In this document: piece after piece, positions 33 through 26,284 of the stretch
Numbering within the stretch: the stretch's first letter is position 1
Layout of the letters: every line of letters begins with the position of its first letter
Source: Winogradskyella tangerina
GTDB taxonomy: Bacteria > Bacteroidota > Bacteroidia > Flavobacteriales > Flavobacteriaceae
Length of the DNA: 64,000 nt
Direction: 5' to 3'
Assembly (NCBI RefSeq): GCF_003260205.1
Contig: NZ_QERF01000003.1
Coordinates: forward strand, 1-64,000
Position numbers and translations under genes: made by a program
The notes under the pieces: model-generated
Database searches by the model: none
Told to the model about the DNA's origin: nothing
The model's input: only the letters and a program-made list of their open reading frames with translations

Positions 33-998
33 TTAGCTTAATCTAGATACATAATTTTCATCATAAGGTAATCCTGATTTTGCAATGGCAAATGCTTGTT
101 TCAACAATTTGTTTGCTACTGCGATCAGGGCCAGTTTTTTACTCTTTCCCTTTGCTACTATCCTATCGTATAATTCCTTACAGGATTTGTTATGCTTGCA
201 TGCCGAAAAGGCACACAAAAACAACAGGTTTCTTAGCTTTCTGTTCCCAATTTTACTTATTCTACTTCTGCCTTTTATACTGCTTCCTGACTCCCTTATC
301 GTTGGTGTAATACCAACATAACTGCACAATTGCCTTGCGTTTTCGAATTTTCTAAAACCATCGGTAACTACTATTAAGAACAGTGCGGTCTTGACGCCCA
401 TTCCCGGTATACTCTTTAATAGACTTAATTGATGTTGCTGATCCTGTTTTACCAGTTTCAATAAACGCGCTTCCAATCCGTTGATTTCTTTGTCCAAATG
501 CTTCAGGTTCCGCCTTAGTGAGCTGTAAACGAACCTCGAGGGCCTGCCCAAGGATTCTTCTCCCTTGATCTTGTTCTTGGTCGCTGTACGCTGTTTGATG
601 TAAATATCCAAAAGCCGAAACAACTGCAGGCATTCAGCTTGAACCTCTGTCAAGGCATTGTACAAAGGAACCTGGTTCTGTATACCATATTCACATATGG
701 CCCTCGCATCGCTCTTATCGGTCTTTACCTTGGCCAAGCGCATCTGGATAAATCGCTTTACCGATAATGGATTGACAACTGAGACAGCGATACCTTGTGA
801 ATATAAGTACTGAGCCAATCGATAATGGTAATACCCTGTGGCTTCCATAACTACTAGTGCATTCTGTGGTAATGTCTTTATAAGTGATTTAAAGCCTTTG
901 TCATCATTTTTTAGTTGAATATGACCACCTTGAGAACTGTATACATCAAATACACTTTTACTAATGTCTATGCCATAAATTTCTTTATCTTTATTCAT
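33..998 (-). CDS. IS110-family transposase (DEDD recombinase)
   Basis: The protein has 321 residues. The N-terminal RuvC-like DEDD domain shows Asp11 in GIDIS, Glu52 in MEATG, and Asp94 and Asp97 in KTDKSDAR. A coiled-coil-like linker follows (about 115-190), then the Transposase_20 domain starting at LLKSIPGMG with the conserved block CSYVGITP...RESGSS that carries the candidate catalytic serine. IS110 enzymes are guided to DNA by a bridge RNA encoded in the element's own non-coding end. The ATG at 998 is preferred over an upstream in-frame TTG at 1022 because homologues normally begin shortly before the GIDIS motif. The reading frame is intact, so the element may still be active. Confidence 0.93.
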   Translation of the reverse strand: MNKDKEIYGIDISKSVFDVYSSQGGHIQLKNDDKGFKSLIKTLPQNALVVMEATGYYHYRLAQYLYSQGIAVSVVNPLSVKRFIQMRLAKVKTDKSDARAICEYGIQNQVPLYNALTEVQAECLQLFRLLDIYIKQRTATKNKIKGEESLGRPSRFVYSSLRRNLKHLDKEINGLEARLLKLVKQDQQHQLSLLKSIPGMGVKTALFLIVVTDGFRKFENARQLCSYVGITPTIRESGSSIKGRSRISKIGNRKLRNLLFLCAFSACKHNKSCKELYDRIVAKGKSKKLALIAVANKLLKQAFAIAKSGLPYDENYVSRLS

Positions 999-1022
999 AA
1001 GAACTGTATTTGGAAAGGACAA

Positions 1023-1162: not shown

Positions 1163-1208
1163 GTTCTTTCTGATTAATCTTCTAAAATTAATAGATTGTA
1201 AACTTAAG

Positions 1209-1335
1209 ATGTGTATAATTCAATGCGACTGAATTCCATATTTGAATTCAATCTTATTCGCTATCTTTCGGTTATAGCAGAATAACACTGCGTGTGATCT
1301 CGCAACAAGCTATACACAAAACCGTTGTAAGTAAT
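1209..1335 (+). repeat. attC-like intergenic repeat 1 (interrupted by the IS)
   Basis: The left arm (ATGTGTATAATTCAATGCGAC) is separated from its outer CAACAA (1-6) by the insertion sequence. The right end reads CTATACACAAAACCGTTGTAA. About 75 bp at 1258-1335 closely resemble 5307-5392: both contain GAATAACACT, CGTGT and CGCAACAA in the same order and spacing, and end in AACC(G/C)TTG. The following gene starts directly at the repeat end. Confidence 0.6.
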
Positions 1336-1743
1336 TTGAGAAAAACGCTAATCATATTGTTATCATTGAGTTATGGACTTTCATCATGCAAGTCCGAAAG
1401 AAAATATTCTGATTATAATGAGTCAGACTTTTATGAAGTACAAGGCTTTATCGAATCAGCAATTCCGACCAGCGACCCGTTTGACAGTCCAAATGAAAAA
1501 AATATCCGATTTAAATATTTTCTTGACCGCGATAATCCGAAATCTGGAATGGAAAATGACTTGGAAATGTTTGAGGCGAAAACTGGATTTCCTTTAATTG
1601 TATTAGTCCATAAGGAAGATGAAAACATTAGCTTTTATGGACGAGTTGGAATTTTAGAAAACTTGAACTCTAAAGAAAAAATGTTTTTATCCGAACATAT
1701 TAGAAACCAAATGAAATTAATTGACCTATCTAAACCTGATTAA
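1336..1743 (+). CDS. Small predicted lipoprotein, cassette-type orphan
   Basis: The protein has 135 residues and I do not recognise the family. From a TTG start the first residues form a clean lipoprotein signal: RK, a hydrophobic run, then LSSC with the lipidated Cys at position 18. The mature part is acidic and soluble and is probably attached to a periplasm-facing membrane surface. The frame is also open upstream to a GTG at 1294, but that stretch lies wholly within the intergenic repeat. Starting at the TTG, immediately after the repeat's GTTGTAAGTAA end, gives both a functional signal peptide and the gene-to-repeat spacing seen in the neighbouring units. Confidence 0.7.
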   Translation: MRKTLIILLSLSYGLSSCKSERKYSDYNESDFYEVQGFIESAIPTSDPFDSPNEKNIRFKYFLDRDNPKSGMENDLEMFEAKTGFPLIVLVHKEDENISFYGRVGILENLNSKEKMFLSEHIRNQMKLIDLSKPD

Positions 1744-1753
1744 AAAACTACTA

Positions 1754-1912
1754 CCAACAATTTATAACCGCAATTACAACAAATTCACCAACCCTTCGAC
1801 TGCGCTCAGGGCAGGCTAAAATCTACTAGGAAATGATAAAGTCTGTGCTAAAACGAAAAGTCTTCGTAATTTAAACCTTAGCTGACGGTAATACTAGATC
1901 GTTGTAATCAAA
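1754..1912 (+). repeat. attC-like intergenic repeat 2 (type A)
   Basis: The left end ACCAAC, with TATAACCGCAATTAC at 1763-1777, can pair with the right end: GACGGTAAT at 1884-1892 pairs with the inner arm, and GTTGTAAT at 1901-1908 with the outer one. The middle holds a REP-like palindrome, CCCTTCGACTGCG followed by CTCAGGGCAGG (1792-1815). The whole unit is a diverged copy of 4171-4316, matching at the left end, the REP-like core and the right end, with a different stretch between. Confidence 0.65.
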
Positions 1913-1924
1913 TTGCAAAAACTA

Positions 1925-2647
1925 ATGAGATTTAATTTAATAGTCGTTTTTCTTTTCCTCTTTCTATCCATTTCTTCGCAAGAAAAAAAAGCTGAATTCA
2001 AAGTTCAATTAAATAACAAGGAGAAAGTTGAATTCGAATCTGACTTCAATTCGTTTGAACATAAATCTGACTTTTTCTATGAAGATGAGAATTACATCGT
2101 AAAAGACTCTTGTAGAGGCGAATTCGGTGGAACAGTTGAATTTAGAAATAAAAAGACTAACAAAGTTTATGTGGCTAAAGCCACATGCCCATCATCTTTA
2201 ATTAAAATAGAGGGAAAGTATTATCTAACCACTTCGCTGGCTCATATGTCTGGATTTTCTGGAATTTATGAAATTGTTGACCCAACAGAACTTACTGAAT
2301 TAAAAGAGGACGATTCTGAAAAAGATAAATTTTTAAAAAAAAGATCAGATAGTGGCCTTAATGAATTGTACAGAAATATTGGCGGAACAATACTTGTTAG
2401 CTTTCCATATAAGGACAAGCTTTATTTTATAACTTCTGACAGAGATGGTACTTATCTCGCTGAAAGAAAAGAATCCGAATTGATTAAAATTAAGAAGTTA
2501 CTGGACTTTAAAGTTTACACTTACGAAACTGAAATTAAAATTACAGATGATAATCACTATGTCAATAATTTTCAAATTAGATATGGAAAGGAAATTGGAT
2601 TATTTGATATTAAGGATAATGTCATCAAAATAAATTTATATAAATAA
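1925..2647 (+). CDS. Exported hypothetical protein, cassette-type orphan
   Basis: The protein has 240 residues with an N-terminal signal peptide (MRFNLIVVFLFLFLSISSQ) and a likely cleavage after SSQ. No known domain is recognised. The mature protein alternates short charged and aromatic stretches, suggesting a beta-rich secreted or periplasmic protein, and contains two cysteines, in DSCRGEF and KATCPSS, that could form a disulphide. An in-frame TTG at 1913 would add MQKL and would place the start even closer to the preceding repeat. The ATG is the more conventional choice. It stands alone between two attC-like repeats. Confidence 0.7.
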   Translation: MRFNLIVVFLFLFLSISSQEKKAEFKVQLNNKEKVEFESDFNSFEHKSDFFYEDENYIVKDSCRGEFGGTVEFRNKKTNKVYVAKATCPSSLIKIEGKYYLTTSLAHMSGFSGIYEIVDPTELTELKEDDSEKDKFLKKRSDSGLNELYRNIGGTILVSFPYKDKLYFITSDRDGTYLAERKESELIKIKKLLDFKVYTYETEIKITDDNHYVNNFQIRYGKEIGLFDIKDNVIKINLYK

Positions 2648-2650
2648 AAA

Positions 2651-2791
2651 ACTAACTACCACAACGGCTATAAGTAATTGCTTGTCCTCGCCTCCTTACG
2701 AAAACTCCACTGGAATTTTCTATCCATGATTATTTGCTAACTTTAGTACTTTAACCTACACAAATCATAGCCAAAACCCTTAGCAGTAATT
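2651..2791 (+). repeat. attC-like intergenic repeat 3
   Basis: Outer arms CTAACTAC (2653-2659) and GTAATTAG (2786-2793) are near-complementary. Inner arms GGCTAT (2666-2671) and ATAGCC (2767-2772) are perfectly complementary. The spacers between outer and inner arms differ in length on the two sides. That two-box, asymmetric layout is the one that defines integron attC sites. The right side reads AACCCTTAGCAGTAATT, like the ends of repeats 1 and 6. Confidence 0.62.
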
Positions 2792-2803
2792 AGAAAATAA
2801 AAT

Positions 2804-3604
2804 ATGAGCCTATTCGATTTCTTCAAGAAAAAAGATAAAAATAAACCTGAAAATAACAAGAATTCTAATCATTTGATATTCAAAGATAAAAATGGAAATT
2901 CGATTTCTCTGTCCGATTTAGAAGGAGCAACTGGCAGATACGATTGGCAAATTGTTGGTAACGGAAAAATACCGAACGATGCTATAATATTACATCAAGA
3001 AGCAAGACAACTTGGTGGGCAAGGAAAATATGATGAAGGAATAGCAAAGTTAAAAGAAGCTAATCAAATCGCTCCAAATTGGGCTTATCCTGTTTATGAT
3101 TTGGCCTACACATACCTCCTTAAACAGGATTTTGAAAATGCTCTGAAATATTACGAACTAACCGACCAATTAGAACCAAAGGGATTTTTTACAGCTAAAA
3201 CAGCTTATTGGTCACTAAAAAAAGAGGAAGAAGGAATTTTTCCGAAAGGTTTGTATTTAGCCTATATGCAGATTGAATGGCAAAATTCAGAAGAGGAAAA
3301 GCTCAGAATTGCTCAGGCGATTTTAGAGAAAATTCCAAATTATGCTCCAGCATGGAAAGAAATTGCAGGAAAGGCAGAAGATCATAATCAAAGACTTGAG
3401 GCTATTGAAAGAGGATTAGAATTAAATCCAGATTTTGAGACAAAAGGAATGCTACTAATTAATAAAGCATTAATTTATGATGTTCAGGGAAATACTAAAT
3501 CGGCAAAGAAAATCTTAGGGCAATTGATTTTCAACAAGGAATCAACTGTATCTAATATCGAAATGGCAAAATTTATATTAAAATCAATTGTAACGAGAAA
3601 TTAA
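2804..3604 (+). CDS. Tetratricopeptide-repeat protein, cassette-type
   Basis: The protein has 266 residues and no signal peptide, so it is probably cytosolic. Residues 1-15 are a short amphipathic, strongly basic segment (LFDFFKKKDKNK). Residues 58-120 contain two recognisable TPR units (GKYDEGIAKLKEANQIAPNW and QDFENALKYYELTDQLEP), and more degenerate helical repeats follow to the end (for example RLEAIERGLELNPDF near 200). TPR arrays bind other proteins, and the partner is unknown. The gene is flanked on both sides by attC-like repeats and has no operon partner. A similar basic Phe-rich tag occurs at an end of the proteins at 4330-5268 and 6683-7432. Confidence 0.8.
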   Translation: MSLFDFFKKKDKNKPENNKNSNHLIFKDKNGNSISLSDLEGATGRYDWQIVGNGKIPNDAIILHQEARQLGGQGKYDEGIAKLKEANQIAPNWAYPVYDLAYTYLLKQDFENALKYYELTDQLEPKGFFTAKTAYWSLKKEEEGIFPKGLYLAYMQIEWQNSEEEKLRIAQAILEKIPNYAPAWKEIAGKAEDHNQRLEAIERGLELNPDFETKGMLLINKALIYDVQGNTKSAKKILGQLIFNKESTVSNIEMAKFILKSIVTRN

Positions 3605-3693
3605 AAAAAGAAGACAAAAGCGACCAAAGGCTAAATCGGCAATAGCGCTATGCGGGCTTACTGCTTTTAACCAGATCGTTGGCAAAACTAAAA
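3605..3693 (+). repeat. attC-like intergenic repeat 4 (short, degenerate)
   Basis: An 89-bp spacer with CGACCAA at the left and GATCGTTGGCAAAA at the right (3676-3689) as outer arms. Inner arms CGGCAATA and TTACTGCTTTT pair imperfectly around AGCGCT. The right end GATCGTTGG matches the GATCGTTGT end of repeat 2. Confidence 0.5.
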
Positions 3694-3697
3694 ATGA

Positions 3698-4177
3698 ATG
3701 ACCTTGAATCCGGCATTAGAATTAAAAGAATATATAACCTCTAACTTAGGAGATAGTGGTGGCACCTGGGAATATGGACATACACCTCATATTGAGTCGG
3801 TATTAAAAAGTCTGAATGAAAAGCAGGCTGAAGAATTTAGTGCTGTAATTTGGGAATGGGAAAATTACCATCTATATCAATTAGCAGACCCAATTTTATG
3901 GAATGGAAATAAAAACATTAATGAAAATTACCTCTACGCAAAAATCTTTAGTCTACTAGATGAACCTGAACAATTGGTTTATTTGGCTCAAAACCTAAGA
4001 ACATGTATCGAATGTTCGGTAATAAAAGATTGGGAGAACAATCTTCTAAAAGATATTGAAAACAACTTATACTATGTAATTAATTACGTAAGTGAAAGTT
4101 GGATCAAAAATCATCTAGAGTTGATTGACTTTATAAACAATGAATTATCGAAAAGAACTACTTCTAAAAATGTATAA
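3698..4177 (+). CDS. Hypothetical cytosolic protein, cassette-type orphan
   Basis: The protein has 159 residues and no signal peptide or membrane segment. It is acidic and predicted mostly helical, with aromatic motifs (GGTWEYGHTPH, VIWEWENYHLYQL) and two cysteines in RTCIECS. The length, acidity and single-gene setting resemble immunity-like or accessory cassette proteins, but no family is recognised. The stop codon TAA lies inside TATAACCGCAATTAC, the left arm of the following repeat, so the repeat supplies the end of the gene. An out-of-frame ATG lies 4 bp upstream; the ATG at 3698 opens the long frame. Confidence 0.7.
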   Translation: MTLNPALELKEYITSNLGDSGGTWEYGHTPHIESVLKSLNEKQAEEFSAVIWEWENYHLYQLADPILWNGNKNINENYLYAKIFSLLDEPEQLVYLAQNLRTCIECSVIKDWENNLLKDIENNLYYVINYVSESWIKNHLELIDFINNELSKRTTSKNV

Positions 4178-4316
4178 CCGCAATTACGACAGATTCACCA
4201 ACCCTTCGACTGCGTTCAGGGCAGGCTAGAATCGACTCGGAAATAATAATAACTGCGCAACAAAAATTAACGTATATTAACCCATTACTGACGGTGATAC
4301 AAGACCGTTGTAAAAC
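4171..4316 (+). repeat. attC-like intergenic repeat 5 (type A, second copy)
   Basis: A diverged copy of repeat 2. TATAACCGCAATTAC (4173-4187), the REP-like CCCTTCGACTGCG/TTCAGGGCAGG (4202-4225), and the right end GACGGTGATAC...CCGTTGTAA (4290-4313) occur in the same order. The inner arms ACCGCAAT and ACGGTGAT pair imperfectly. The copies differ mainly in the middle, between about 1830 and 1875 in copy 1. Confidence 0.65.
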
Positions 4317-4329
4317 ATTTAAGAAACCC

Positions 4330-5268
4330 ATGAGCTACAGAACATACAATGTGATTATCAAATTGGACAATGATAATTCTGAAATAAAGGATCATTTATT
4401 AAACAATTTTAAATTCTTTAATAACAGAATATTTTTTGAACCTTTTAAGGGGTTTGTATGCCAATCCAGTGATAGGTGGAAAAGTCATCCATTTGAAAAG
4501 TTCCCCGATAATTTTTTTAAAAATCAAGATGAGGTTGAAAATCACTTTGAATATGGAATAGAGGATAAACTAATGGAAATATCGAAGGCCTTCCCTGAAA
4601 AGGAAATTGCTTTCATTGATGTCGACTGCTTTGGAGGCGCTTGCACATCTGACGGTTTTATTATTAAAAATCAAGAAAAGATTTTTGTACAAGAACCTCA
4701 TCATTCTTCTCATATAACTTTACTACAGAAAATTCACCCAGGCTTTAACAGTTGGTTTTTTTATCCTTTTACAAGAACATTTTTTACCGATATAGGTGGA
4801 ATCAATGGCGATATAATTAACTTTTCGTTTGCAGCCGTTTGGTTAGCTGTAAGTCAAGAATTCGGAGAGAATAAAGATTATAATCTTCAGGCCGCTGCTA
4901 ACGAAATGTTCTTAGATTGCCCGAATGAATTCAATTTATATTTTATGAAAGTCAATGATAATTGGATAAAAATTATGGGGAGCATTTTACAAAACAACAA
5001 TACGCTTTTTCAAAAAGTAAAAGATCTTATTGAAGATATGCTTCTAGGAATGGAATATAATATCGAAATAAATAATCTCGAAAATGGAGAAACAACAGTT
5101 TTAAAGACCATTGACCAAGAAAAAAATAAAGAGATTAAAGCTACTAGTTATAGAACTCATGCCTTTAACTCTCAAACCATTGATTTATCAGCTAACCATA
5201 GCAGTGGTTCAAATGATAAATCACCTAAGAAAAAGAAAAACTTTTTTCAAAGATTATTTGGGAAATAA
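4330..5268 (+). CDS. Hypothetical protein with basic C-terminal tag, cassette-type
   Basis: The protein has 312 residues and no signal peptide. No family is recognised. The centre carries IAFIDVDCFGGACTSDGFII followed by a His-rich HHSSH patch, which could bind metal but matches no motif I know. The last 20 residues are lysine-rich and end in NFFQRLFGK, an amphipathic basic tail resembling the N-termini of the proteins at 2804-3604 and 6683-7432. The frame is open upstream to a GTG at 4294, but that lies inside the repeat, so the ATG before SYRTYNVII is preferred. Confidence 0.7.
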   Translation: MSYRTYNVIIKLDNDNSEIKDHLLNNFKFFNNRIFFEPFKGFVCQSSDRWKSHPFEKFPDNFFKNQDEVENHFEYGIEDKLMEISKAFPEKEIAFIDVDCFGGACTSDGFIIKNQEKIFVQEPHHSSHITLLQKIHPGFNSWFFYPFTRTFFTDIGGINGDIINFSFAAVWLAVSQEFGENKDYNLQAAANEMFLDCPNEFNLYFMKVNDNWIKIMGSILQNNNTLFQKVKDLIEDMLLGMEYNIEINNLENGETTVLKTIDQEKNKEIKATSYRTHAFNSQTIDLSANHSSGSNDKSPKKKKNFFQRLFGK

Positions 5269-5271
5269 AAC

Positions 5272-5393
5272 AGTTGCTAACAACGGCTACAGTTCATTAC
5301 GGCTGAATCCCTATCTTTAAGCTACGACGGAATAACACTACGTGTCATCCCGCAACAAACCATACATAAAACCCTTGGCAGCAACCTAAGCAC
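5272..5393 (+). repeat. attC-like intergenic repeat 6 (type B)
   Basis: The outer arms are CAGTTGCTAAC at the left (5271-5281) and TTGGCAGCAAC at the right (5370-5380); GTTGCT pairs with AGCAAC. The left arm continues AACGGCTACAGTTCATTACGG. The stretch containing GGAATAACACTACGTGTCAT and CGCAACAA matches repeat 1, and supplies the uninterrupted version used to locate the IS ends. Confidence 0.62.
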
Positions 5394-5439
5394 AGAAATC
5401 ACAAAGAAATATTTGAATTTATGAAACACCTTTTGTACT

Positions 5440-5461
5440 TTTATGAAAGTACTTTCATAAA
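5440..5461. promoter_or_regulatory. Perfect 22-bp palindrome, likely MarR operator
   Basis: The core TTATGAAAGTACTTTCATAA (5441-5460) is its own reverse complement, and one further A/T pair extends it. It sits 8 bp before the start codon of the MarR-GNAT gene. A half-site TTTATGAAA lies 20 bp further upstream. MarR-family repressors bind symmetric sites of this size over their own promoters, so autoregulation is a reasonable inference. Confidence 0.7.
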
Positions 5462-5469
5462 TAATTAAT

Positions 5470-6420
5470 ATGTCAGATGTATTAAACAATTTAGGATATC
5501 TTGCAGGAGCTTCAAGGTTTAGAAGAATTAGTGAAAAACTGCAACAAGATGGTGACAAGATTTATTCAGGGGCCAATATACGATTTAAAGCAAGTTGGTT
5601 CTCTGTTTACTATGTTTTAGCTAAAACAAATTCACAACAGACTATCCTGCAAATTTCCGACCAAATCGACTTTTCACACATTACAGTAAAAAATATTCTT
5701 CGAGAACTAAAAAAAGAGGAATTAGTCAGCATTATACCTAACCCTAATGATAAACGCTCAAAGTTGGTCGGACTAACAAAAAAAGGGAAAGAATTACAGA
5801 TGGAACTTGAACCTATATGGCTATCATTTTCCAATACGCTTAAAGAACTTTTCTCAATTGGTCATCCAGATTTGATTAATATTTTGGATAGGTTAGATCG
5901 GGAAATCAATCATAAACCAATAAATAAACGTTTTAATCAACCCAAAGACGAATTTGTCAAAATCATTGATTATAAACCAAGTCTTAAAAAATATTTCTAC
6001 GAATTGGCTGGGCCTTGGCTATTGAGTGTTCTGGATGGTGTTTTAGAAGAAGATGACGAATTCACCTTACACAATCCTGACAAAGCCTATTTAGAAAATG
6101 GTGGATTTCTCTTTTACGCTAAGTTTAAGGAAGAAATTGTTGGATGTGTTGCCTTAAAACGGCTGAATGAAGATGCCTTTGAGTTCGCCAAATTATTCAT
6201 CAATCCTAACTATAGAAAACTTGGAATTGCAACAAAATTAATTGAACGTTGTATAAGTCGTTGTTTAGAAAATGATACTACTGAACTATGGCTACAAACC
6301 ACGATGAGTATGCCACAAGCACACAGATTATATTACAAACTTGGTTTTAAAGATAAAAAAGCACCATCTCAAATGGACGTTTTAGAAAGAACCGAAAAAA
6401 TAATGTGCTTATCTTTATGA
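5470..6420 (+). CDS. MarR-type regulator fused to a GNAT acetyltransferase
   Basis: The protein has 316 residues. Residues 1-150 form a MarR winged helix: recognition helix around DQIDFSHITVKNILREL, wing at PNPNDKRSKL. Residues about 160-316 form a GNAT N-acetyltransferase domain with the acetyl-CoA motif NYRKLGIATKLI (248-259) and a C-terminal YKLGF. Fusions of this kind are known in bacteria. The acetyl acceptor is unknown, and the two halves may allow an effector or acetyl-CoA to be sensed and acted on in one protein. The gene overlaps the next by ATGA, so translation is probably coupled. The perfect palindrome just upstream suggests autorepression. Confidence 0.88.
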   Translation: MSDVLNNLGYLAGASRFRRISEKLQQDGDKIYSGANIRFKASWFSVYYVLAKTNSQQTILQISDQIDFSHITVKNILRELKKEELVSIIPNPNDKRSKLVGLTKKGKELQMELEPIWLSFSNTLKELFSIGHPDLINILDRLDREINHKPINKRFNQPKDEFVKIIDYKPSLKKYFYELAGPWLLSVLDGVLEEDDEFTLHNPDKAYLENGGFLFYAKFKEEIVGCVALKRLNEDAFEFAKLFINPNYRKLGIATKLIERCISRCLENDTTELWLQTTMSMPQAHRLYYKLGFKDKKAPSQMDVLERTEKIMCLSL

Positions 6421-6650
6421 TTCACATTATTGGTTATTCAGCTCTAGGTGTTAATTTACTTTCAATGACCATGAAAAATATCTTGTTGTTGAGAGCTCTA
6501 TCATTGATCGCTAATTTGATTTATATTGCTTATGGAATACTATTAAATGCACCACCATTCATAATAGGTTGTGGAATAGCAGTTTTGATTCACGGATTTC
6601 ATATTTTTAAGATTCAAAAATCAAAGAAGGCAACTGCCAACAATGATTAG
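6417..6650 (+). CDS. Small membrane protein coupled to the MarR-GNAT gene
   Basis: The protein has 77 residues with three predicted membrane segments (IIGYSALGVNLLSM, LLRALSLIANLIYIAYGILL, FIIGCGIAVLIHGFHIF) and a short basic tail. The pattern resembles small inner-membrane proteins of the YgjV type, but the match is too weak to name. The ATG overlaps the upstream stop by four bases, favouring this start over a GTG at 6405. Coupling to a regulator/acetyltransferase suggests a joint role, possibly in resistance or sensing of a small molecule. This is inference only. Confidence 0.7.
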   Translation: MIHIIGYSALGVNLLSMTMKNILLLRALSLIANLIYIAYGILLNAPPFIIGCGIAVLIHGFHIFKIQKSKKATANND

Positions 6651-6682
6651 AACTAATTAAAGCTACAGAACCGTAAAAACAT
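6651..6682 (+). other. Short inter-cassette spacer, degenerate
   Basis: Only about 30 bp. The end of the preceding gene reads GCCAACAATGATTAG, and the spacer ends AGCTACAGAACCGTAAAA, which vaguely recalls the AACAA...ACCGT ends of the attC-like repeats. No convincing pairing arms remain. Confidence 0.3.
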
Positions 6683-7432
6683 ATGAGCATATTCAAAAAA
6701 TTATTTGGAAGAAAACCAAAGGAAAAAAAAGAAGTTCAACCAGAATCTAATACTTCATTTAAAACTGCAACCATATCTGCTTCTGATTTAGCAAATTTAA
6801 AAGTTGGAGATACCATAAGTTTTGGGAATCCGGAAGAGGCTGAAAAAACATATGAACCCAAATGGATTAAACCTAATGAAAATCCATATAACTTAGAGGT
6901 ATTTGATTGTAGAGAATACGCTCTAAAAATGACATCTACAACCCAAGATCCCAAAATTGCAACCAATTTCTTGAATTTAAGGGAAAGTGATGGAAAAGAA
7001 TATATTGGCAAATTTCCGGAGAATGCTGCAAAGTGCGAAGTTGACTTAAATTTTAACACAAAGGGAAGGCAAATTCCAGATGGAGTAGTTTATAAAGCAT
7101 CCGAAATGGAAGAAAAATGGGATATCTATAAATATGCAAATTTTCTCTTTTTTGTTCGCAGTTGGACAGGCGAATTAGTCTACTTTTCAAACTACATACC
7201 GACAGCAAAAGGATTTAAAGTTGATCTTATTGTTTTAGATGATAGGAAAATCGATCAAGAAGACCCATTCTTTGAATTTAAAGTTGTCGAATTTCTAATT
7301 CATAGTCATATTTTGGGTTATAATGTTCCGCATCCTATTCCAAAAAGTCTCGATAGAAATAATCACGAAAGTATTTTAGGGTATTCCTTTTCAATGTTTG
7401 GCAATAAGGGACAATTTGCAACTTATGATTGA
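6683..7432 (+). CDS. Hypothetical protein with basic N-terminal tag, cassette-type
   Basis: The protein has 249 residues and no signal peptide. Residues 1-18 are amphipathic and basic (SIFKKLFGRKPKEKKE) and are followed by a low-complexity linker to about residue 60. The rest appears to be one alpha/beta domain with aromatic runs such as YANFLFFVRSWTGELVYFSNY, a composition seen in small orphan proteins of Bacteroidota. I recognise no catalytic motif. The tag closely resembles the tail NFFQRLFGK of the protein at 4330-5268 and may dock these proteins to membranes or a common partner. Confidence 0.7.
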   Translation: MSIFKKLFGRKPKEKKEVQPESNTSFKTATISASDLANLKVGDTISFGNPEEAEKTYEPKWIKPNENPYNLEVFDCREYALKMTSTTQDPKIATNFLNLRESDGKEYIGKFPENAAKCEVDLNFNTKGRQIPDGVVYKASEMEEKWDIYKYANFLFFVRSWTGELVYFSNYIPTAKGFKVDLIVLDDRKIDQEDPFFEFKVVEFLIHSHILGYNVPHPIPKSLDRNNHESILGYSFSMFGNKGQFATYD

Positions 7433-7503
7433 TTATGACTGACTACAATAACAGCCCAACACTTTAACACATCAAAAGCATTACTGTCATCTTTGAGTAA
7501 CCA
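7433..7503 (+). repeat. Degenerate attC-like spacer 7
   Basis: AATAACAGCCCAAC at the left and GCATTACTGTCAT at the right give weak complementary arms (ACAG/CTGT and flanks). It is similar in position to the other inter-cassette repeats, but shorter and without the GTTG end. Confidence 0.35.
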
Positions 7504-7515
7504 TTGAAAAAAACC

Positions 7516-7977
7516 ATGTGTGATTATACCAACGGAATTAAACTTTGCTCTTGCAAAAACGAAAAAATCAAATTTCGTGAGCCAAGAGTTTTTATCAAAA
7601 AGAAGGGGAAACTCATTGAAAAAGAGAACCCTGAAAATGCTGATATTCCAATAGAATATATTTGGACGCTTTTCAAATTTGAAGGCGAAAAAGAAATTAC
7701 CGAAATAGGTCGCTATATGATGCCCGATAATGATTTAGGAAATGGTCTCAATGCAGAGTGGATTGCGCTGAATTTGAATTCTGAAAATTGCTTTGATTTC
7801 GATTACACCCCAAATGAAGGCGATAATTTAAAAATTCGTCAGAACGTGCGATTAGGACCGTATTTATCATTTATTTTTAGAAAAAATGAATGGATAATCG
7901 ACCACCATAGTCCTTGGTCGACCGAAATATCAAAAATTAAAGAAGGGAAAATAAAAGCCAATACTAACAATAGCTAA
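7516..7977 (+). CDS. Hypothetical cytosolic protein, cassette-type orphan
   Basis: The protein has 153 residues, with no signal peptide and no membrane segment. The N-terminus has three cysteines close together (MCDYTNGIKLCSCKNEK), which could bind a metal. The rest is charged, with beta-strand-like stretches (IPIEYIWTLFKFEG, LGPYLSFIFRKNEWIIDHHSPW). No family is recognised. An in-frame TTG at 7504 would add MKKT. The ATG is chosen because nothing resembling a ribosome-binding site precedes either start and ATG is the stronger codon. Confidence 0.65.
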   Translation: MCDYTNGIKLCSCKNEKIKFREPRVFIKKKGKLIEKENPENADIPIEYIWTLFKFEGEKEITEIGRYMMPDNDLGNGLNAEWIALNLNSENCFDFDYTPNEGDNLKIRQNVRLGPYLSFIFRKNEWIIDHHSPWSTEISKIKEGKIKANTNNS

Positions 7978-8021
7978 AACCTCAATTCCAAAATAAAAGT
8001 TCGTTGCACAATAGTTAAGCC

Positions 8022-8585
8022 ATGAATTCAGATTACAAATTTATCGCAAAAGACCAATTAACCGAACTTGCAAAACGCAATGGTATCAAGTCATGGAATG
8101 AATTAACCGATTTTGTAAAAACCCTACCCTATGGGCGTACTAAAAATAGAACAGACCTCAGTCTCGTATTATCTGAAAAAAAAGGAACCTGCAGCTCAAA
8201 ACACGCCTTACTAAAACGTCTGGCCGATCTCAATGACATACCAAATATTGAACTGGTCATCGGAATCTATAAAATGACGGAATCTAATACGCCGAAAATC
8301 GGAAATGAACTCACCCAAAATGGGCTTGTTTATATTCCGGAAGCCCATTGTTATTTAAAAATAAATGGAAACCGAAAAGATCTAACAAGCAACCAATCAG
8401 ACATTGATAAAATTGCAAAGGACATCATTGAAGAACAGTTTATTGAGCCACACCAGATCGCAGAATTCAAAGTTAACTATCACAAAAATTTCATCAAGGC
8501 ATGGCTAAAAGAAACAGATTCAGAATCAGAATTTGATCGCATCTGGACCATCAGAGAAAATTGTATTAACAGACTAACAGAATAA
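8022..8585 (+). CDS. Transglutaminase-like hypothetical protein, cassette-type
   Basis: The protein has 187 residues and no signal peptide. The arrangement Cys57 (KKGTCSSKHALL), His109 (PEAHCYLKI) and Asp120 (NRKDLT) matches the Cys-His-Asp order and spacing of the transglutaminase-like cysteine hydrolase fold, in which the Cys opens a helix and the His and Asp sit on adjacent strands. Such proteins may be proteases, transglutaminases or inactive scaffolds, and the substrate cannot be told. It is the last clear member of the run of single-gene units. The domain call rests on motif reading alone. Confidence 0.68.
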   Translation: MNSDYKFIAKDQLTELAKRNGIKSWNELTDFVKTLPYGRTKNRTDLSLVLSEKKGTCSSKHALLKRLADLNDIPNIELVIGIYKMTESNTPKIGNELTQNGLVYIPEAHCYLKINGNRKDLTSNQSDIDKIAKDIIEEQFIEPHQIAEFKVNYHKNFIKAWLKETDSESEFDRIWTIRENCINRLTE

Positions 8586-8589
8586 ACTA

Positions 8590-8620
8590 GGTGTCACTGC
8601 CAAAACCGCCAACAATTTAA
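8590..8620 (+). repeat. Remnant of an attC-like right end
   Basis: GGTGTCACTGCCAAAACCGCC followed by AACAATTT resembles the right half of the repeats upstream (TTACTG...AAAACCGTTG). It lacks a partner arm and marks the likely end of the cassette-type stretch. Confidence 0.35.
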
Positions 8621-24827: not shown

Positions 24828-26027
24828 TTACTTCAACTTATTTCTGAGTTTGCTCATTTCATTACTAACACTTTGCTGCACAATCTTCCCGTAGTGACGT
24901 TGAGTAATTATCATACTAGAATGACCTAGTAATTCACTAACAATTTCCATTGGCACTTCATTAAATAAAAGTACTGTCGATGCAAAGGTTCTTCGAGCTA
25001 TATGTGTAGTTAATCTTTTTTCGATTCCAATAATAAATGCTACTTCTTTTAAGTAACTATTATATTTCTGGTTACTTATTCTTGGAAAAACATAATTATC
25101 ATTATCGAATTTTGCTAATATTTCTAAGGCCTTGGGAAGAATTGGTATGGATACTGGTCTTGATGTTTTTTCTCGTACTATCTGAATCCATTTATGGCCG
25201 TCAAATCCATCTATTATGTTTTCTTGTTTTAAATTCATAAGATCTACATAGGCAAGTCCTGTGTAACAACAAAAAACAAATAAGTCTTGGATTAAGCTAA
25301 GTCTAGATTGATTGAACTTATAATTTTCTATGAAAAATAATTCTTTTTGATTTAAAAAGACGATTTTCTTTTTTACAGGTTTTGCCTTATGCAGCTCAAA
25401 AGGATTTCTCTGAAGAAAACCGTCAACAACTGCCATCTTAATTACTCTTTTAAACCTCTGTAATTTTTTATTAATTGTAACCTGCTGATAGTCTTTTTCA
25501 GTTTTATAATAATACTCTAGTTTATCTAAAAAATTCGGTTTTAAATCTTTCAACAGAATATCATTTTTTTTAAAATCTGATTTCAAAACTCTCATTATAT
25601 CTGATTTTATATAGAAGTATTTTTTATATGTTTCTTGTTTTAACTCTATATTTATTAGTTTTTTATATTTCTTTAGATAAATGTCATAGTATTCAATAAC
25701 TCCTATTTCATTGGTGTCCTTTTCACCTATAAATACTCTAAAAATATCATCTACGCTAAAATCTACATCCTTTATCTTCAATGATAAAAAAGAATGATTT
25801 ATTTTATTTCTAATTAATGTCAAATGCTTATTTTTTAAATCCGATTCTTCCGAATCACCCCCGACGAGTTGTTTTCTACTATCCCATAGTTTAGGGTCAA
25901 TGTACTCGCCTGTACTAAAAGATCTTCTCTTTTTCTTGTATGTAATTCTGCCATACAGTGCAGCTTTACCATTTTTTATTCTGCCTCTATATAAAACGAA
26001 AATAAAATTTAATCTATCTAAAATCAT
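24828..26027 (-). CDS. Tyrosine recombinase/integrase (phage_int_SAM type)
   Basis: The protein has 399 residues. The N-terminal arm-binding domain (FIFVLYRGRIKNGKAALYGRITY), the SAM-like core-binding domain (about 105-205) and the catalytic domain are all present. Readable catalytic residues are Lys287, His342-x-x-Arg345 (THIARR), His369 (LLGHS) and nucleophile Tyr379 (RHYGKI). The first catalytic Arg, expected in TGLRxS, is Ala259 (TGLAYVD). Bacteroidota element integrases often depart here, and IntDOT of CTnDOT also lacks it. The gene lies 183 bp from the 3' end of tRNA-Asn, the usual position for an integrase that uses a tRNA as its attachment site. Confidence 0.92.
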   Translation of the reverse strand: MILDRLNFIFVLYRGRIKNGKAALYGRITYKKKRRSFSTGEYIDPKLWDSRKQLVGGDSEESDLKNKHLTLIRNKINHSFLSLKIKDVDFSVDDIFRVFIGEKDTNEIGVIEYYDIYLKKYKKLINIELKQETYKKYFYIKSDIMRVLKSDFKKNDILLKDLKPNFLDKLEYYYKTEKDYQQVTINKKLQRFKRVIKMAVVDGFLQRNPFELHKAKPVKKKIVFLNQKELFFIENYKFNQSRLSLIQDLFVFCCYTGLAYVDLMNLKQENIIDGFDGHKWIQIVREKTSRPVSIPILPKALEILAKFDNDNYVFPRISNQKYNSYLKEVAFIIGIEKRLTTHIARRTFASTVLLFNEVPMEIVSELLGHSSMIITQRHYGKIVQQSVSNEMSKLRNKLK

Positions 26028-26210: not shown

Positions 26211-26284
26211 CTCCTCAGACTGGGCTCGAACCAGTGACCCTCTGATTAACAGTCAGATGCTCTAACCAACTGAGCTACTGAGGA
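26211..26284 (-). tRNA. trnN: tRNA-Asn (anticodon GTT)
   Basis: A complete cloverleaf: acceptor TCCTCAG/CTGAGGA, D arm GCTC...GAGC with AGTTGGTTA, anticodon stem TCTGA/TCAGA around CTGTTAA (anticodon GTT), T arm with TTCGAGC, and discriminator G. CCA is not encoded. The gene reads toward the tyrosine recombinase, so its 3' end is the likely attachment sequence. Confidence 0.95.

Follow-up and report, generated by a model that had tools for sequence, protein, structure and literature searches.

A candidate integron-type cassette system in Winogradskyella tangerina and its relatives, with a tyrosine recombinase lacking the I2 region

Introduction

The first 64,000 nucleotides of contig NZ_QERF01000003.1 of Winogradskyella tangerina (Flavobacteriaceae, Bacteroidota), the stretch analysed here and called the window, carry a row of short open reading frames (ORFs) separated by spacers resembling the attC sites of integrons. 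The question is whether these genes are cassettes and, if so, what moves them. In our judgement the best explanation, to which we give a probability of about 85%, is an integron-type system in which a tyrosine recombinase without the I2 region, encoded at the head of the array, would move one-gene cassettes. Below, G, C and L numbers are our labels for genomes, contigs and loci; contig C10 begins with the window.

Single-strand recombination by integron integrases is ascribed to the I2 helix, which is said to be absent from any other protein (PMC7790495). Surveys have been built around it: the application of IntegronFinder in PMC9668308 depends on a profile specific to IntI, and a 2008 survey retained only matches with the additional domain (PMC2426708). 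Bacteroidota are among the phyla with integrons in PMC8618304 and PMC9668308, and one passage reports a single complete integron in Bacteroidetes proper, that of Salinibacter ruber, with only cassette-free integrases before it (PMC9024848). Bacteroidales also carry the clusters termed recombinase-associated acquired interbacterial defence (rAID), the growth of which is called an open question in the part cited (PMC12247911).

Cassettes as Units

If the genes are cassettes, the two ends of each should belong together, and we therefore compared the 7 nt after a starting GTT with the last 7 nt ahead of the same cassette's final AAC, the latter read as their reverse complement. For 24 cassettes of this genome, own ends matched at 5.17 of 7 positions against 2.6 for the next cassette and 2.57 after shuffling, a value reached by 0 of 20000 shuffles; all 16 cassettes in C1, C5 and C8 scored at least 5/7 with hand-chosen anchors. 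Because these first anchors had been picked by eye, a second round of the test took its sites from a covariance model, R1, in six other genomes (242 sites, each genome in one or two contigs). Own ends there matched at 6.21 and next cassettes at 2.79 over 229 cassettes (0/2000 shuffles), and 203 of the 229 scored 6 or 7. In each of these arrays the sites lay on a single strand (242/242), and the longest ORF was on the array strand in 210 of 228 cassettes. Genome G028 alone has 115 sites in ~117 kb, with three more ~35 kb off if the contig is circular. Its cargo of 71 distinct proteins is drawn from mixed families and includes abortive-infection, HerA, GmrSD, Barstar and toxin-antitoxin proteins; this array (L126-L134, C1 ~1-103 kb plus the contig's far end) may be a defence-gene store.

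The sequence-only reading of the window had named the same gene order across genera as an outcome that would speak against it; among 253 cassettes, 12 pairs were common to two genomes and none of the 12 had a common neighbour. Duplicated cassettes formed 23 near-identical pairs. Identity starts at most 8 nt ahead of the G of G^TT in 20 of these and stops 2-6 nt beyond the G of the following G^TT in 19; among the exceptions are pairs with duplicated neighbours. A 363-bp unit common to C1, C8 and C5 of this genome likewise begins and ends at GTT. On this comparative evidence, the cassettes appear to move as discrete units.

Site Structure and the Folding Strand

The arms of the spacers had been read as two pairs folding as in attC, and covariation bears this out. 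RNAalifold, applied to 15 sites (four from the window), placed nine pairs in two blocks of 6 and 3 with a mismatch between them, and compensatory changes occur in six of the nine. In this alignment, 91.1% of cells were paired against 67.9% after shuffling, and the covariation score was 0.534 against 0.140, neither being reached in any of 500 shuffles; sliding the partner by 1-3 columns lowered pairing to 24-43%. Two further measures did not stand out among the 15 sites: pairs changed on both sides numbered 6 against 4.4 shuffled (41/500 as high), and further pair types 10 against 8.5 (102/500). In the larger set, cassette-end pairing spans positions 0-9 and 11-13, position 10 being Watson-Crick in only 3 of 228.

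It is the mismatches that suggest which strand folds. Over 194 sites of 134-142 nt, with ten positions summed, a top-strand A.C, that is, a bottom-strand G.T, was found 233 times and a top-strand G.T nine times; one position alone supplies 153 of the 233. At position 10 in the R box, C.A occurs in 188 of 228 and G.T never. Conserved mismatches that can wobble as G-T on the bottom strand alone suggest that it is this strand of the attC-like sites that folds, as in integrons; the folding energy of that strand was the lower in 225 of 242 sites.

The Recombinase and Its Arrays

The sequence-only reading saw no integron integrase. This holds within the window and fails for the genome as a whole: at the end of contig C1 lies a tyrosine recombinase, on the minus strand and resembling both IntI and XerA, followed by cassettes with the same sites as the window. 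Its scores are 230.6 bits against NF040815 (cut-off 220) and 213 against TIGR02249, the profile of integron integrases (cut-off 265); of the solved structures, 4a8e (archaeal XerC-like) and 2a3v (IntI4) match its sequence best. Overlaps of 127 bp at contig ends fit one array, C1 - C8 - C5 - C10, broken by insertion sequence (IS) copies.

The association of recombinase and sites extends well beyond this genome. With R1 at E<=0.001 (and at most 33 candidates scored per genome in the survey of genus and order), sites were found in 59 of 60 genomes of the genus, in 10 of 39 others of the order, mostly as one or two matches, in 172 of the 199 sampled from the family, a large one with mainly marine members, and in 48 of 198 across the phylum. 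The recombinase was detected in 53 of the 60 genus genomes at E<=1e-50 and in 123 of the 199 family genomes at E<=1e-55. In the family, 118 genomes had both, 5 the recombinase only, 54 sites only and 22 neither (Fisher p 1.7e-6). In 80 named recombinase loci, the 33 site matches at E<=0.01 lay in eight loci, all from Bacteroidota, on the plus strand and downstream; these include Winogradskyella ursingii, Seonamhaeicola aphaedonensis, Algibacter onchidii, Algoriphagus and Rufibacter.

Layout was followed at 40 recombinase loci, hand-picked from the genus and family surveys mainly for long contigs. Sites lay within ~10 kb of the recombinase in 37 of them, and two of the three site-free loci stop 175 and 223 bp past the recombinase (L162, L184). 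Downstream and co-directional placement accounts for 217 of 220 sites, the other three being at one divergent locus, L185. Recombinase and array run in the same direction in 36 of the 37 site-bearing loci. As in classical integrons, the recombinase is divergent from the array in G004:C2:553752 (L185) and also in G028:C1:104015 (L131), and the two divergent recombinases group together in the tree.

Just past the recombinase stop, an inverted repeat followed by G^TT was seen in this genome, in L043-L047 and in G005, G026, G034 and G047. Under a fixed criterion, with GTT no more than 8 nt after it, this attI-like repeat is present in 16 of 20 loci of recombinase subfamily A, and 3.5% of 780 control windows reach its score. 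What can be read from the sequence is thus a recombinase - attI - array layout, with a candidate attI in subfamily A only.

The host XerC/XerD or another recombinase might move the cassettes, as with IMEX elements, leaving the nearby recombinase to serve the attI repeat only; XerC and XerD are both encoded in this genome, and an attI in the form of an inverted repeat is like dif-like sites. The head recombinase, however, co-occurs with the sites, which lie next to it at 37 of the 40 loci, and we consider this alternative very unlikely.

What the Recombinase Is

At least 120 relatives were collected, most of them about 376 amino acids (aa) long with an extra N-terminal domain. In 99 genomes of relatives none passed the TIGR02249 cut-off, matches stopping near profile position 175-181, against 369-488 bits for seven IntI from other phyla. 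The missing part is also visible in the spacing of catalytic motifs, which in 29 of 35 Bacteroidota rows (6 unmeasured) comes to 65-66 residues, compared with 107-108 in five of seven IntI (2 unmeasured) and 71-72 in three rows of XerC/XerD; the relatives from archaea and the candidate phyla radiation are short too. Residues 183-241 of IntI4 fall in a gap between aligned stretches, facing only 16 residues of the C1 recombinase. A quick tree groups the seven IntI in a single clade (SH-aLRT 100), leaves the Bacteroidota proteins outside it and resolves no deeper order. An AlphaFold2 model of the recombinase (pLDDT 82, pTM 0.50) best matched IntI4 and XerA over residues 103-373. Judged by these comparisons, the proteins are a recombinase clade of Bacteroidota without the I2 region, related to IntI and archaeal XerA. 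Modelled alone (pLDDT 80.9), the N-terminal domain gave weak matches, the best to the N-terminal part of XPB. Domains like that part of XPB bind distorted or branched DNA, and the link to the recombinase is speculative.

These results leave little room for a classical integron, in which an I2-bearing IntI exists or existed and moves the cassettes, with the I2-less protein a bystander. The architecture and the G^TT boundaries agree with classical integrons, and IntI is often split from its cassettes in draft assemblies, as a passage of PMC9024848 notes; but none of the 99 relatives passes a profile on which IntI from other phyla score above the cut-off, and it is the I2-less recombinase that heads the arrays. 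We regard this explanation as very unlikely.

The Array in the Window

The ORF list of the window has ten co-directional short ORFs in a row from ~1336 to 8585; the earlier count of about nine was one short, the single direction correct. To find their sites independently, we used a second covariance model, R2, whose 11 training sites all come from contigs of this genome other than C10. In the 64-kb window it recovered exactly five at E<=1, all on the plus strand between 1199 and 5383, with E-values of 9.9e-13 to 1.8e-4; the repeated structured site described in at least six spacers is real, and that number was overstated. The features are as follows.

33..1022, minus: IS110-family transposase ORF (PF02371 and PF01548 over cut-off)
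1199..1333, plus: attC-like site 1, with the IS inserted in its left arm; R2 E 3e-9, outside the training sets of R1 and R2
1336..1743, plus: putative cassette gene 1; ORF without Pfam or PADLOC match
1749..1910, plus: attC-like site 2; R2 E 1.8e-4
1925..2647, plus: putative cassette gene 2; ORF without Pfam or PADLOC match
2653..2788, plus: attC-like site 3, the window's best; R2 E 9.9e-13
2804..3604, plus: putative cassette gene 3, TPR protein (Pfam TPR)
3698..4177, plus: putative cassette gene 4; ORF, preceding spacer not recovered as a site
4159..4316, plus: attC-like site 4; R2 E 9.1e-5
4331..5268, plus: putative cassette gene 5; ORF without Pfam or PADLOC match
5272..5383, plus: attC-like site 5, the last recovered; R2 E 8.3e-7
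5470..6420, plus: winged-helix and GNAT acetyltransferase gene (PF13463, PF00583)
6405..6650, plus: 81-aa ORF without Pfam match
6683..7432, plus: ORF in the stretch without recovered sites (ORF list)
7504..7977, plus: ORF in the stretch without recovered sites (ORF list)
8022..8585, plus: final ORF of the row, followed by ordinary genes (ORF list)

The cargo is mostly without Pfam match, and the spacers near 3600-3700, 6640-6690, 7430-7510 and 7965-8020 were matched by neither R1 nor R2. The window array reads as the worn distal tail of a sedentary integron-type cassette array.

Contig C10 opens inside an IS110-family element. Copies of it interrupt attC-like sites in their left arm, just past AACAA, at 33-1333 in the window and also in L023 (C1, ~120), L025 (C5, ~6565) and L026 (C8, ~3830); the same end of the element joins two different cassette R'' ends on C1 and C5. 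This recalls the IS1111-attC group of insertion sequences. The likeness is that of an IS of the IS110 family inside attC-like sites; host phylum and site family differ, and the comparison extends to one arm position and a few junctions.

Two related attC-like sites carry a REP-like word, CCTTCGACTGCG.TCAGGGCAGGCT, within their loops (1790-1815 and 4200-4225 in the window). Elsewhere in the genome, isolated sites occur far from any array, for example, on C14 and at C15:81492, and a 777-bp repeat of ~95% identity is found three times in L024 (C4; 128-904, 2409-3185 and 7742-8518) and once on C15 (L027, 6790-7565). The window also encodes a 413-aa phage-type tyrosine recombinase (24891-25283), ~1 kb from a tRNA (26211-26284) and perhaps part of an integrated element.

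Weighing the Interpretation

Several results weigh against an integron-type system, the window itself supplying four of them. No site was recovered by R2 past 5383; the unbiased test of cassette-end complementarity was not significant on the window alone (606 of 5000 shuffles as high); with hand-chosen anchors only two of its eight cassettes scored at least 5/7; and its stems ranked 3, 17, 7, 2, 21, 7, 17 and 3 of 22 against mismatched arms, several being no better than these. Other contigs and genomes add to the list. The unbiased end test was also not significant in L050, L057 and L088. A single in-frame TGA interrupts the N-terminal part of the C1 recombinase gene, and the platform of this genome may therefore now be inactive; the C10-C1 join and the contig order are ambiguous, since the 127-bp overlaps sit within the IS repeat. 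In the family, no recombinase passes E<=1e-55 in 54 of 172 site-bearing genomes, and sites are missing from 5 of the 123 genomes with a recombinase. Finally, none of 19 subfamily-B loci reached the attI repeat score; an attI of subfamily B, should there be one, must be of a different kind.

The first of the family figures, the single sites far from arrays and the window array taken alone would all suit miniature mobile elements or regulatory intergenic repeats between ordinary genes that are not mobile as cassettes, but that explanation is nearly refuted by the 242 one-strand sites, by the 217 of 220 that follow a recombinase, by ends matching within a cassette and not between neighbours, and by duplicated units that contain the gene and end at GTT.

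In the integron-type system that we favour, the recombinase at the array head, on another contig of the same genome, would capture circular one-gene cassettes at a double-stranded attI, consisting of the inverted repeat followed by TTG^TT. The attC substrate would be the bottom strand folded as a hairpin and cut at G^TT. The catalyst would be the Bacteroidota clade of recombinases, of ~376 aa in subfamily A, without I2 and with the extra N-terminal domain of ~80-100 aa. Thus, the head recombinase would catalyse the reaction, attC would act as a single strand, and the N-terminal domain may do the job of I2.

Relation to Known Systems

Sedentary chromosomal integrons are the closest comparison. 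They share with the present arrays the order of recombinase, attI (here a candidate one, in subfamily A) and a one-strand array of mostly single-gene cassettes, as well as split hairpin attC sites, G^TT boundaries, a bottom-strand bias and the shuffling of units; here, however, the recombinase is without I2, carries an N-terminal extra domain and is mostly co-directional with the array, and the R box is long, variable and self-complementary. The definition of an integron includes sites of the attC type, and imperfect hairpins with conserved ends and a G^TT boundary are what the sequence contains. The array is nonetheless not an integron by the current definition, because its recombinase lacks the I2 region (no TIGR02249 match over cut-off, short motif spacing); to judge from sequence, it very likely works like one. 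Clusters of attC sites without integrase (CALIN) resemble the window contig, which has sites and no recombinase, but differ in that this genome has a recombinase with the same sites elsewhere.

The rAID clusters share a related tyrosine recombinase, co-oriented short genes and conserved intergenic motifs (PMC12247911). They differ in being described by their immunity cargo, and the word integron occurs 0 times in the passages cited from that paper; the Flavobacteriaceae arrays have mixed cargo and another site sequence. A plasmid search with the recombinase gave 259 records, of which the best 20 were considered. One array, on a Bacteroides ovatus plasmid (L189, 4953-11032), has immunity-type genes behind a related recombinase and is rAID-like. 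R2 found no site in it, and its cassette ends were self-complementary in two tests (31 and 22 of 5000 shuffles as high). Recombinase relatives thus head both the Flavobacteriaceae arrays and the rAID-like array; rAID clusters may be integrons, and probably are the described branch of this system.

A shortened relative of the recombinase (55.7% identity over residues 143-376) was present in 13 of the best 20 of the 259 plasmid records. In both records inspected, an Acinetobacter plasmid (L186, 5052-7073) and a plasmid from an uncultured host (L187, 4052-6073), it is directly upstream of tet(X3), and between the two lie an inverted repeat and then ACTTGTTATG, resembling attI. tet(X3) is a single gene, its ends allowing no test of complementarity; by position, it sits as if it were the first cassette of a Bacteroidota platform. 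Both this tet(X3) platform and the rAID clusters of Bacteroidales have the look of branches of the system.

How did the first interpretation of the window fare? An integron-like array is upheld by one-strand orientation, covarying split arms, unit mobility and an attI-like site, the strongest evidence coming from other contigs and from relatives rather than the window. The suggestion of an unreported type stands in part: the recombinase lacks the I2 region by which surveys recognise IntI, and among the matches listed from open-licence papers there was no description of these arrays in Flavobacteriaceae. On the other side, a relative has been described in the rAID clusters, and Bacteroidota figure among the phyla listed with integrons.

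Implications

A broader proposal, which we consider somewhat favoured and hold with clearly less assurance than the system itself, is that Bacteroidota have their own integron lineage, independent or ancestral, that would recombine folded single-stranded cassettes without the I2 helix, its N-terminal domain recognising structured attC. The gut rAID clusters and the tet(X3) platform on Acinetobacter plasmids would be branches of it, and surveys would have missed the lineage because their filters demand I2.

A clade apparently doing the job of I2 without I2 makes the claim that this helix is exclusive to integron integrases directly testable, and cassette ends that are variable yet self-complementary bear on how cassettes are born. 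If the interpretation is true, it suggests how rAID clusters grow and puts tet(X3) in a cassette position, and Flavobacteriaceae would be a family with large cassette arrays in which surveys based on I2 profiles would miss the recombinase.

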